From: Pilaira anomala
Taxonomy: Eukaryota > Mucoromycota > Mucoromycetes > Mucorales > Mucoraceae
DNA: 64,000 bases
Assembly (NCBI GenBank): GCA_025716855.1
Contig: JAIXMQ010000074.1
Span: forward strand, 1-64,000
Reading direction: 5' to 3'
Positions 14,549 through 64,000 of the stretch are shown in pieces (the first letter of the stretch is position 1; every line of letters starts with the position of its first letter). Position numbers and translations under genes: made by a program. The notes beneath the pieces are model-generated. The model searched no databases. It was not told the DNA's origin and saw nothing but the letters and a program-made list of their open reading frames with translations.

Positions 14549-15354
14549 TTAACGAGAAGTGGCAGCAGCCTTGGGAGCGAAACCCTTAGCACCTTGCTTG
14601 CTAACCTTGGCTTGAGAACCCTATATGTATATAAAAAAAATTAATTGAGTTCATCTATACATATTTTTTTTAAAAAAAAAAGAAAGACTTACGGCAGGGT
14701 TGGCAGCCTTTTTGGCAGCAGCAGCAGCCTTCTTAGCATCCTTGGACTTAGAGATAGCAGCTTGACGAGCGGCAGCACGGGCATCGGGCTTTTGGTTACG
14801 CTTGGCACGAATAGCATCCCAAGAGGCACCAACAACAGCACGCTCGTGCTTGACGGTACGGCGAGAACGCTTCTTTTGGAACTCTTCTTGCATACCCTTC
14901 TTATTCAAACGACGATAGATAACGGTCCACTTGATCTTACGGGGGTTCAAACGTTGAATGAAGTAAGAACAGGCCTTACCGCTGATGAAACGGAAATGCT
15001 ATCAAAGGGTATTAGTTATCCATCATTCTAATCTACATCTATTTCCCCCCTTTTTTTTCGACACTATTTTTTTTTTAAATATATATATATTCTTCAATTC
15101 TCTCTCGCTCTCTATTTCTCGCTCTATCTATATCTCTCTCTAATACATACTCTATAAAAGTAATAATGTAAGTTTTAACAATGTCCATTACACTCGAAAA
15201 TAAAAATTTACCTGCTATCAATACGGACGTAGGTCTTACCCTTGGAAGGGTAAATCTTGTGACCAGAGAAGGAACAAATCTCGAGCCTATTTTAATATGA
15301 TGCATTGAGTTATTGGATGGATTGATGGATATGTTTAGTTTCGCCATACTTCAT
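14549..15354 (-). CDS. RPL24: 60S ribosomal protein eL24
   Basis: Exons (minus): 15350-15354 (five coding bases, ATGAA), 15212-15286, a proposed 1-nt microexon at 15151, 14693-14998 and 14549-14620. Together they give 152 residues beginning MKLEICSFSGHKIYP, the invariant eL24 N-terminus, then VRIDSRHFRF, NPRKIKWTVIYRRLNKKG and a Lys/Ala-rich tail ending AAATSR. Without the microexon the frame breaks at the second intron: AG at the exon end plus CATTTC is off by one base. Inserting the single A, which is flanked by TTTTATAG and GTATGT, makes AGA (Arg) exactly where yeast and human proteins have Lys. A missing base in the sequence is the alternative. The protein is part of the large subunit near the inter-subunit bridge. 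GC-rich third codon positions fit high expression. Confidence 0.93.
15151..15151 (-). other. Candidate 1-nt microexon of eL24
   Basis: On the minus strand the context is TTTTATAG-A-GTATGT. The upstream intron would be 60 nt (15152-15211, donor GTAAAT) and the downstream intron 152 nt (14999-15150, with ACTAAT near its 3' end). The single A completes an Arg codon and restores the family frame. Confidence 0.65.
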
Positions 15355-60038: not shown

Positions 60039-61245
60039 ATGTCAGTGTATCAACAATCACGGCGGACGTTTGGTAACAAGAGTGTTTTACCTACTTCAAA
60101 TGACATGGACTCTAAAAACCAAAGTAAGTAACAAAAAAAAAGGAGGAGAGGGAGAAGAGGGATCATCTCATCATCTAGTTACTTATTACTTTTTTTGATT
60201 AGGTCAAGCAGTACTTTTCGGTTTAAGTCGAAAGCAACTTTCACTGATTGTGTTGGTAGTTCAGAATAGTACACTTGTATTGATGATGAGGTATTCGCGC
60301 ATTGTACAAAAACCGGGACAAACAATGTATATTGCTTCTACAGCAGTATTTTTAGCAGAGGTATTAAAGATTATTGCATGTTTAATGGTGATGCGACATC
60401 AACAAGGAACTTGGGATAGGTTTAGTACGATGGTCAAAAGAGAGATATTAGGGAAACCGAGCGAGACATTAAAAATGCTTATTCCATCTGGTCTTTACGC
60501 ACTTCAAAACAATTTATTATATGTCGCATTAAGTAATTTAGAAGCGGCAACATTTCAAGTAACCTACCAAATGAAAATTATGTCAACTGCTATATTCAGT
60601 GTGGCTTTATTAGGAAGAAGTTTAACTCGAGATAAATGGTTGGCACTTTTACTATTAATGATTGGTGTCACTCTTGTTCAATCTCAAAGTATGTCTTCTT
60701 CTTCTGCTTCTACTTCTTCTTCAAGTACTACTTCAACTACTACAACCAAAGTAGATGAAATCTTATTGGCACCTCAAAATCCTTTTATTGGTTTAATGGC
60801 AGTAATCACAAGTTGTATTTCTTCAGGTTTTGCTGGTTGTTATTTTGAAAAGATTTTAAAGACATCGGATACTTCAATGTGGGTACGTAATATTCAATTG
60901 GGAATATCAGGAGCTTTATTTTCGCTGGTCGGGATGCTAGCTTATGATATACAACCTATCATGGATGGTGGATTATTACAAGGTTATAATTGGCTTACTT
61001 GGGTTGTTGTAGCAAATCAAGCATTAGGTGGTTTATTAGTTGCTATCGTTGTAAAATATGCTGATAATATTTTAAAAGGCTTTGCTACCAGTTTGTCGAT
61101 CATTGTTTCTGGTGTAATCAGTATTTACTTATTTGGTTTTCAGCCTTCTGGTGTCTTCATCGTTGGTGCATTTATTGTCATGTCTTCGTCTTACCTTTAT
61201 GGAATAGATTTCTCAAAGCGATTCTCTCGTGTAAAACCACTCTAA
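60039..61245 (+). CDS. Golgi nucleotide-sugar transporter (SLC35A type)
   Basis: Exons 60039-60123 and 60203-61245; 375 residues. About ten membrane helices of the SLC35A family: LVVQNSTLVLMMRYSRI, TAVFLAEVLKIIACLMVM, LIPSGLYALQNNLLYVALSN, LEAATFQVTYQMKIMSTAIF, RDKWLALLLLMIGVTLVQ, VITSCISSGFAGCYFEKILK, SMWVRNIQLGISGALFSLVG, ADNILKGFATSLSIIVSGV and FIVGAFIVMSSSYLYG. The motif set matches UDP-GlcNAc, UDP-galactose and CMP-sialic acid carriers; UDP-GlcNAc or UDP-Gal is the likely substrate in a fungus. An unusual Ser/Thr run (SSSSASTSSSS) lies in the loop between helices 5 and 6. Confidence 0.93.
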
Positions 61246-61645
61246 AAAAGATTATTTATATACATCTCTTCTTACTTAATAATAACACTAAATAATAATG
61301 ATATATCAAACCCCCCTTTTTTTTTTCTTTATTTCTTTCTTTCTTTCTATCTATCTGTATATATATACACTCACACACTCACTCACACTCACTCACACTC
61401 ACTCACACTTCACAAAAGATATAATAAAACCTCTATTTCATATACATAAATCTTATTTTTAGCATCAATCTGCGTTACATGGGACAATTGTCATCCTTTT
61501 ACTATTTTTCACGTTTTCTTTGATCCATTTACCAATTGTGCAACAATCTTTTTTTATGTATACCTTTCACAACAGCATCACAAACCACAAAATATATATA
61601 TATATACATAATCATGTTTTTATTATGTAACTATCTTTTGTAAAT

Positions 61646-61679
<34 letters not shown>

Positions 61680-62581
61680 AAAAGACTCGTTCATTTGTTA
61701 TTTATAGTTTAGAAATTACAAATATGGTGAAATACATCTATAAAAATGAACTCACAACACACTTCATCACATATACCTAGAATAATATTATATGTGCACC
61801 TATGTAAATACATCTGTTATAATATACTAAGAACAAAGTATACTGATATACCCTGTTATACTCTGTATCTATTCACTGTCAATACATATAAAGCTATAAA
61901 AAAAAAAAATAGACAATGTATCATAAAACAAGCTCTCTTTATACACGCAACTAACCTTTTATAAAGATTATTCACTAAACTATGTAGTGACCCCATTTTA
62001 TATATTTAACGTTCATATTTTCTTTGATTGCTTTTCTTATAATCAATAGTTAAGTATCACATGCTTACATGGAAATAACTATCAAGCACACGTATAATAT
62101 GTAAATACTTTTTATAAAAAGAATGTGTTTCTCTTAGTTCTGAGAGTAATAATTAAACTACAATGATACTAACAGGGCAACAGCCACGAGAAGGCAGAAA
62201 CACGTCTGGTCCCAAAAAGTATAAGAAGACAATTAGCAAAGCAACACTAAAACGCATGTACACCTGCCACTAGTACACACTATAATTAACCAAATAAGAA
62301 TCATCATCAATTCTTATCCACCACCATATTTTATATCTAACATAGAGGTGTCATCTAACATCACAAATGCTTCATGCCTTTGGAGGATAAGAAGAAGAAA
62401 AAAAAAAGCATGAAAAAAGAGGGTTTGATTTATAGGTACTTTTTTTCTGCAGTCAGTTCTTTCTAGTTAAAAAAAAACAGAATTAAAGCCGAGGAATATT
62501 TCATAAGAACGATAACCACTGGTTCCATATCAGGTTTAGTTTATAGCAAAAAGGAAACTATTACTTTTTCATGCAATGAAG

Positions 62582-62615
<34 letters not shown>

Positions 62616-62751
62616 TTTCAGAGCGCCGGGTTTGTGCGGGACTAAAAAAAAAAAAAAAAAAAAAAAAAAATTAGGGATGGGGGTATTAGTTCAGCGTAAA
62701 AATATGTAAAAGAGAAAATCTCTTTGTTCATTCCACTTTTTAAAAAACAAA
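61246..62751. other. Intergenic region, repeats only
   Basis: Contains an ACTCACTCAC-type repeat (about 61370-61408), an (AAC)n microsatellite (61646-61679) and poly-A tracts of about 30 nt (62581-62611 and 62645-62670) upstream of the EF2 gene. No coding frame of note. The right end is the EF2 promoter and leader. Confidence 0.5.
61646..61679. repeat. (AAC)n microsatellite
   Basis: About 11 trinucleotide units. Confidence 0.9.
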
Positions 62752-64000
62752 ATGGGTATGTTGATTTAGACTATATCCATCCATCAAAGTAAAGAGCATT
62801 TTTTATCTTTAATGGATGGATTATTATTATTTTTTTTGAAAAAAAAAGCTAGAAACTAACAATATTTTATAATTTTTATTCAACTTCATGACAATTTAGT
62901 TGTAAGTATTATTTTGAATTCAAAATGTTAAAAAAAAAAAAAAATACTCTGTAGAATAAATCAGAAAAACTAATAAACCCAAATTATAGAATTTCACTAT
63001 TGAAGAAATCCGTACCTTAATGGACAAAGTTACCAATGTCCGTAACATGTCCGTTATTGCTCACGTCGATCACGGTAAATCCACCTTAACTGATTCCCTT
63101 GTCTCCAAGGCCGGTATTATTTCTTCCGGTCGTGCTGGTGAGGCCCGTTTCATGGATACTCGTAAGGATGAACAAGAACGTGGTATTACTATCAAGTCCA
63201 CTGCCATTTCTCTTTATTTCCAAATGGCCGATCCTACTGATATTGAGGAAATTAAGGGTCAAAAGACCAACGGTTCTGCTTTCTTGATTAACTTGATCGA
63301 TTCTCCTGGTCACGTTGATTTCTCTTCTGAAGTTACTGCTGCCCTTCGTGTTACCGATGGTGCCCTTGTTGTTGTTGATTGTATTGATGGTGTCTGTGTC
63401 CAAACCGAGACTGTCTTGCGTCAAGCTTTGAACGAACGTATTAAGCCCGTTATCTGTCTTAACAAGATGGATCGTGCTCTTCTCGAACTTCAATTAGATA
63501 AGGAAGAACTTTACAACTCTTTCTCTCGTACTATTGAATCCGTTAACGTTATCATCTCCACCTATGTTGATGAAGCTCTCGGTGATGTTCAAGTTTACCC
63601 CGAAAAGGGTACCGTTGCTTTCGCTTCCGGTCTTCACGGTTGGGGTTTCACTCTTCGTCAATTCGCTATCCGTTATGCCAAGAAGTTCGGTGTTGATAAG
63701 CAAAAGATGATGGGTAAGCTTTGGGGTGAAAACTACTTCAACCCTAAGACCAAGAAGTGGACCACCAAGTCTACTGATGCTGAGGGTAAGCAACTCGAAC
63801 GTGCTTTCAACATGTTCATTTTGGATCCTATCTACCGTGTCTTTGATTCTGTCATGAACTTCAAGAAGGATCAAACCAAGGTTCTTTTGGAAAAGTTAGA
63901 GGTTAACCTCGCTGCTGATGAAAAGGATTTGGAAGGTAAGGCTCTTCTTAAGGTCGTTATGCGTAAGTTCTTGCCTGCTGGTGATGCTCTTTTGGAGATG
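62752..64000 (+). CDS. EF2: Translation elongation factor 2 (5' part)
   Basis: Exons 62752-62755 (ATGG), a proposed 2-nt microexon 62900-62901 (TT), and 62990 to the window edge; the first 339 residues are seen, the gene continues beyond 64000. The spliced start reads [10 protein letters not shown], the classical EF2 N-terminus. GTPase motifs: [15 protein letters not shown] (G1), the switch region [18 protein letters not shown] (G2), [12 protein letters not shown] (G3), [11 protein letters not shown] (G4), and domain G' segments follow. EF2 drives GTP-dependent ribosome translocation; the diphthamide histidine lies outside this window. Strong codon bias towards C-ending codons fits very high expression. 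The codon before AATTTC is an in-frame TAG, so the main exon must begin there. Confidence 0.97.
62900..62901 (+). other. Candidate 2-nt microexon of EF2
   Basis: Context ACAATTTAG-TT-GTAAGTATT. The first intron (62756-62899, donor GTATGT, AAACTAAC upstream of the acceptor) and the second (62902-62989, donor GTAAGT, ACTAAT near the acceptor) both have complete splice signals. TT turns ATGG plus AATTTC into ATG GTT AAT TTC, Met-Val-Asn-Phe. Confidence 0.7.

Follow-up and report, generated by a model that had tools for sequence, protein, structure and literature searches.

The EF2 gene that runs past the end of the window (the whole 64,000-nt stretch analysed here, C198:1-64000) very probably contains an internal exon, TT, that is only two nucleotides long and in all likelihood constitutive, and our confidence in this explanation of the EF2 5' end, taken as a whole, is high. 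The coding part of the start exon, ATGG (62752..62755, forward strand, as are all EF2 features), supplies Met and the first base of Val2 and is the same in the second gene copy described below (L009 2129-2132). Intron 1 (144 nt, 62756..62899) runs from a GTATGT donor starting at 62756 to a TTTAG acceptor ending at 62899, with a branch-point-like CTAAC at 62856..62860. The TT at 62900..62901 provides the second and third bases of the Val2 codon GTT. Intron 2 (88 nt, 62902..62989) has a GTAAGT donor (62902-62907), a CTAAT at 62970-62974, and an ATAG acceptor that ends at 62989 and carries an in-frame TAG; the main exon (62990..64000) begins at Asn3 and continues beyond the window, the open frame in the genome being 842 aa.

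The ATGG, TT and AATTTC segments, their splice sites and the CTAAC and CTAAT motifs all lie at the positions claimed in the first-pass annotation, and its proposal that TT restores an invariant Met-Val-Asn-Phe start was borne out by splicing in silico. With TT spliced in, the product begins Met-Val-Asn-Phe; with ATGG joined directly to AATTTC it reads MEFHY-stop, the stop being codon 6, and retention of intron 2 or of both introns likewise leads to stops. The predicted start of the EF2 mRNA is ATGGTTAATTTC, rather than ATGGGGAATTTC or a start from another upstream exon. The nearest of the listed matches to the EF2 protein come from Mucorales, with Benjaminiella poitrasii at 93%.

A second EF2 copy and the weight of the microexon model

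The same 34.25 Mb genome has a second EF2 gene (copy B; contig C68, locus L009), with the layout ATGG/GTAAAG, a 167-nt intron, GATTAG/TT/GTAAGT, a 127-nt intron and TATAG/AATTTC, the TT lying at L009 2300-2301. From the main-exon acceptor onward, identity between the copies is 98.5% across 2192 nt, and in 729 codons compared there are 33 nucleotide differences, affecting 31 codons synonymously and 2 non-synonymously. Upstream of that acceptor the 5' non-coding DNA gives no long alignment, and intron 1 is alignable in short blocks only. Six stretches of at least 9 nt are shared between the 5' intervals. The two longest, of 15 nt each, are TTAGTTGTAAGTATT, at the microexon and its splice sites, and TATAGAATTTCACTA, at the main-exon acceptor; two more are the arms of the motif considered below, ATGGATGGAT and ATCCATCCA, which are collinear with both 15-mers, and the remaining two, both 9-mers, are not collinear. 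The microexon 15-mer (TTAG/TT/GTAAGTATT) is identical and collinear in the two copies. In a BLASTN comparison with low-complexity filtering upstream of the acceptor, the best E value, A/T runs aside, was 0.004, which was reached by the microexon 15-mer and, in a tie, by one antisense 28-nt match. The 2-nt exon, which our aligner picks in both copies, is conserved amid non-coding DNA that has for the most part diverged.

A nucleotide-sugar transporter gene (Pfam PF04142 in the window copy) adjoins both EF2 copies, so that the segment of transporter plus EF2 is present on C198 (window 60250-64000) and on C68 (L009). The two transporter proteins are 64% identical over 323 residues, and the duplicated segment is therefore old rather than recent. 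Near-identical EF2 coding DNA beside a 64% transporter suggests gene conversion of the EF2 coding sequence, and the coding part has probably been homogenised between the copies.

Chance is a poor source for such an element. The pattern YAG-TT-GTRWGY appeared in 0.005% of 20,000 dinucleotide shuffles of the window-copy interval and in 0.015% of 20,000 shuffles of the copy B interval. Gene models were scored with a custom-written spliced protein aligner whose splice-site scores were set by hand and untrained; 0 of 400 shuffles of the window-copy interval reached the real spliced-alignment score. Some MVNF model was nevertheless possible in 16 of those 400 shuffled intervals, so frame restoration alone is weak evidence, and the weight of the case rests on the quality of the sites and on the second copy. 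An Rfam scan of the whole window gave nothing at the gathering threshold.

An alternative dispenses with the microexon: a single intron would join a start exon further upstream to the main exon (ATGGGG/GTATTA...ATAG/AATTTC), the protein would start MGNFT, and the TT element would be a chance relic. This is indeed the best model for the window copy once the microexon donor is masked (upstream ATGGGG, 307-nt intron), and MGNFT is the annotated start in one public record (P0016, Halteromyces). The model scores lower, however (160 vs 171), and has a weaker donor; masking copy B in the same way yields a different best model, MGKNFT (148 vs 162), so that the copies have no masked-donor model in common. 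It also breaks the MVN start found in 66 of 83 non-Mucorales rows (best 120 of 7994 matches) and leaves the conserved 15-mer TTAGTTGTAAGTATT unexplained. We consider it very improbable and retain the 2-nt exon, which has several of the features looked for in an ultra-short exon: direct GT-AG flanks with branch-like sites (TTTAG/TT/GTAAGT, CTAAC, CTAAT), necessity for the conserved frame (a stop when TT is skipped, and loss of Val2 in both copies when its donor is masked), and conservation beyond chance, as seen in the collinear 15-mer of a diverged duplicate and in the shuffles.

The single-nucleotide exon of eL24 and public protein records

The first-pass annotation had cited eL24 as a parallel case of an ultra-short exon, and the parallel holds, a 1-nt exon A being found in 3 of 3 eL24 copies. 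The window copy (14882-15354, reverse strand, as are its exons) has a start exon ATGAA (15350..15354), a 75-nt exon 2 ending ...GATAGCAG (15212..15286), and the 1-nt microexon A (15151..15151; TATAG/A/GTATGT), third base of the Arg codon AGA, which it completes within ...DSRHFRF; L014 and L015 have the same architecture. A search of the genome for the L24e family returned five gene loci. Three are eL24 (C198, C112, C219), for which the aligner gave coding exons of 5, 75 and 1 nt and then one long exon, with TATAG or TTTAG before the A and GTATGT, GTAAGT or GTAAGC after it. The other two, L012 (C143) and L013 (C26), match a human RLP24 probe and are without the 1-nt exon, having exons of 81, 114 and 33 nt. 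The RLP24-like genes share a phase 0 intron after codon 27, at the position where eL24 has the intron that immediately follows its 1-nt exon. The matching positions hint at an origin of the 1-nt exon by gain of a second, neighbouring intron a single nucleotide upstream of the older one. The window eL24 protein is closest, among the matches listed, to that of Thamnidium elegans (97%), which together with the EF2 matches marks the organism as a Mucorales-type fungus.

Public protein records were then compared across taxa, with taxon classes assigned by hand from names and with unnamed rows and Bifiguratus placed among the others. For eL24 (best 120 of 210 matches; 118 classed, two short fragments excluded), the junction was intact in 19 of 68 Mucorales/Umbelopsidales records, 16 of 16 from Mortierellomycotina and 32 of 34 others (p 8e-15); put the other way, it was not intact in 49/68 Mucorales/Umbelopsidales vs 2/50 others (best 120 of 210). 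The 49 comprise 13 records that retain the end of exon 2 and continue with wrong residues, 12 that are cut within exon 2, 15 with a different left side and 9 that differ on the right side. Exon 2 is in a shifted frame in 8 of the 49, and 40 are correct again from FRF. Gene predictors unable to connect the real exon ends in frame would be expected to leave such a pattern, which, from the protein records alone, suggests a spread of the 1-nt exon across the Mucorales/Umbelopsidales clade.

The EF2 records (best 120 of 7994 matches; 118 classed, two over-long plant and insect records excluded) point the same way. Those starting MVN made up 12/35 in Mucorales/Umbelopsidales vs 66/83 in the others (Fisher p 4e-6), leaving 23/35 vs 17/83 with another start. 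The error falls exactly before Asn3 in seven of the 35 rows (P0005, P0007, P0014, P0016, P0019, P0020, P0023; best 120 of 7994). A tiny start exon, with no microexon needed, could produce part of these N-terminal errors. The ultra-short exons are a possible explanation for many faulty public gene models of eL24 and EF2, a matter of consequence for phylogenies and proteomics.

Splicing order and known ultra-short exons

Since splicing factors cannot flank a 2-nt exon simultaneously, the spliceosome would remove the EF2 introns in two successive steps, by intron definition. Were intron 2 removed first, intron 1 would then face an ordinary acceptor (TTTAG/TTAATTTC); were intron 1 removed first, ATGGTT/GTAAGT would serve as the 5' splice site, with the last exon bases, GTT, unchanged. 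Exon 1 and the intron 1 acceptor both end in G, so that the TT donor is preceded by GTT with intron 1 present or gone, and either splicing order could therefore work. The donor context of the 1-nt eL24 exon is equally independent of order (AGA).

The almost back-to-back acceptor and donor also invite another reading, in which TTAG/TT/GTAAGT acts mainly as a regulated switch or as a site of recursive splicing: EF2 would be made when TT is included, whereas skipping would lead to a 5-codon peptide and nonsense-mediated decay, so as to tune the EF2 supply. In zero-nucleotide recursive splice sites the acceptor and donor are almost adjacent, removal is likely stepwise and no exon is left; the EF2 element resembles these in its near-adjacent sites but not in its outcome, as the two coding bases must stay for MVNF to be made. 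Sites of the zero-nucleotide kind are cited in PMC4674806. Skipping of TT does yield MEFHY-stop, and skipping of the 1-nt eL24 exon would also shift the frame. A frame shift, however, follows from skipping any exon whose length is not a multiple of three, and the EF2 interval is short enough that recursion is unnecessary on grounds of length. We find a switch rather doubtful and continue to favor a constitutive exon.

Ultra-short exons are already known. In Arabidopsis and other land plants, APC11 contains a constitutive 1-nt exon that is essential to the frame and missed by annotation (PMC4674806, PMC8831610); it was demonstrated with cDNA and reporter constructs (PMC4674806, PMC8831610), and the authors propose that intron definition and recursive splicing act together there (PMC4674806). 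The EF2 TT is likewise an ultra-short internal exon between GT-AG introns that is needed for the frame, but whereas APC11 is a plant cell-cycle gene with a 1-nt exon, the present exon is of 2 nt, belongs to a fungal translation factor, occurs in two gene copies and is known here from sequence alone. Exon lengths of 2-5 bp have been noted for Arabidopsis, Drosophila and humans, and the 1-nt exon of the Fusarium P450 gene CYP621A has been called the first for a fungal gene (PMC12940212). Like that exon, those described here are fungal and deduced from frame and conservation; unlike it, they lie in EF2 and eL24 of a Mucorales-type fungus and were read from genomic DNA only, CYP621A being a rarely expressed P450 gene for which there were RNA reads (PMC12940212). 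The 1-nt exon of plant VPS55 is conserved over a clade, has a GTRAGT donor and causes annotation to lose N-terminal residues (PMC8831610), three features that recur, or probably recur, in the present exons. One flowering-plant duplicate clade of VPS55 is without the exon (PMC8831610), whereas both EF2 and all three eL24 copies retain theirs.

A literature search, covering few subscription papers, turned up among the papers listed no account of either ultra-short exon, in EF2 or eL24, or of the ATCCATCC motif taken up below; 'microexon' is merely a read-mapper option in the excerpts of PMC4462047, and the word is absent from those of PMC8476143. What sets the present case apart is the genes concerned, the retention of the exon in every duplicate identified, and its likely occurrence across a clade. 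EF2 and eL24 are core translation genes and among the most highly expressed. Splicing around a near-zero exon would have to be reliable for such essential, high-volume transcripts, and the two exons would make a natural substrate for studying the spliceosome on exons too short for exon definition.

The intron 1 motif and the reach of ultra-short exons

EF2 intron 1 contains an inverted pair of motif arms. The left arm, ATCCATCCA (62775..62783, forward strand), is a copy of an 8-mer enriched at translation genes; the right arm, ATGGATGGAT (62812..62821, forward strand), could form a 10-bp RNA stem with it, and the pair recurs in copy B (L009 2176-2211). Genome-wide, the 8-mer ATCCATCC is found 1153 times vs 225 for the reversed string. 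It is present in 18/28 ribosomal protein loci vs 4/30 background loci (Fisher p 1e-4), the background loci coming from the strict genome scan described below and including one, L030, that is itself eL24. When all 8-mers were ranked by excess over background, TCCATCCA, ATCCATCC, ATGGATGG and CATCCATC took ranks 1-4; counted in that ranking were six additional gene starts, retrieved once the motif had been noticed. These later starts (uL2, eL15 twice, eL37, eL43 and eS27; six of 18 wanted) all hold ATCCATCC, for which the chance per 701-nt stretch at genome density is 0.023. The ribosomal protein loci listed for ATCCATCC are L014, L050, L052-L057, L060-L062, L072, L075, L076, L079-L081, L084 and L088-L093.

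The position of the motif varies. Of the 13 gene models with an intron next to the start codon, 10 carry it within that interval, 23-120 nt downstream from the A of the ATG and in either orientation, and three are without it; it lies 59-366 nt upstream in uS8 (2/2), uS7 (3/3) and uL16 (1/3). In the six later gene starts it is 20-76 nt after the presumed start codon in three and 184-249 nt before it in three. Intron 1 of eL24 has a single motif in two of the three copies and none in the third. A motif enriched at translation genes is, in short, present in EF2 intron 1, and its occurrence in either orientation and position is as expected for a double-stranded binding site. We infer that ATCCATCC is a candidate double-stranded regulatory element of translation genes, and this putative element offers a reason for an intron hugging the EF2 start codon.

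The pair could instead act not as a DNA motif but as an RNA hairpin that draws the two ends of intron 1 close to each other and renders TT recognisable. It is present in both EF2 copies, the pattern ATCCATCCAN{8,36}TGGATGGAT occurs at two places in 34.25 Mb, both of them EF2 first introns, and the predicted fold of intron 1 has a stem of 10 bp in the window copy and 9 bp in copy B. Set against a hairpin formed by the inverted ATCCATCCA/TGGATGGAT pair are the frequency of the 8-mer at ribosomal protein genes, in either orientation and either upstream of ATG or in intron 1, and the fact that the eL24 copies, with their 1-nt exon, contain one motif or none. Because the 8-mer is enriched at other translation genes, a DNA motif is likelier than a hairpin serving the microexon, and we judge the hairpin quite unlikely.

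Intron 1 of EF2 appears to belong to a class of start-codon-hugging introns of translation genes, often with ATCCATCC, that may enhance or regulate expression. The TT would be the remnant between two introns, each of which has been retained; loss of either would erase the microexon. A broader proposal, which we put forward tentatively as possible but not probable, is that core translation genes of Mucorales-type fungi share a start-hugging ATCCATCC intron that drives or tunes expression and cannot be lost, so that the coding bases up to the following old intron are left over as ultra-short exons (of 2 nt in EF2), clade-wide and systematically mis-annotated, with skipping as a ready off-switch.

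The suggestion in the first-pass annotation that this organism tolerates ultra-short exons broadly in highly expressed genes was supported only in part, for two families, EF2 and eL24. A strict genome scan (CTAACN{6,36}YAGN{1,6}GTAAGT), which finds 2/5 known cases (1/2 EF2, 1/3 eL24), gave no genome-wide excess of microexon-like elements, with 45 matches vs 148 in the reversed control, and among gene models for 26 loci from 11 further ribosomal protein families no internal exon of at most 5 nt was credible. The scan for exons of 1-5 nt in other genes that had been put forward as a check thus speaks against generality: with no motif excess and no credible case in the 26 loci, ultra-short exons are not apparently a genome-wide habit. 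Some start models (uS12 L050 and L051, uL5 L077, uS9, uS10 and uL14) are unreliable because of weak sites or of human queries with a different N-terminus, and a microexon there could be missed.

Two candidates were rejected. Two scan matches sharing a 5-nt 'exon' AACTC turned out to be unrelated. A GG internal exon in uL14 (L057) has a poor donor, GTTATT, and there is an alternative reading for both uL14 copies: L057 and L062 can each be read, by eye, as a 10-nt start exon ATGCCTAARG followed by TTAGCGTTTCC, the aligner having chosen otherwise. That reading gives an N-terminus MPKVSVSGTKF, unlike the human one.

The 8-nt exons of uS7 are terminal, none being internal. In 13 of 14 loci of uS11, uS12, uS13, uL5 and eL24, a few of whose models are weak, 3-5 coding nt precede intron 1. 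Introns placed 0-2 nt past the start codon are seen in L053, L058, L051, L052, L054-L056, L076-L078, L014, L015 and the window eL24.
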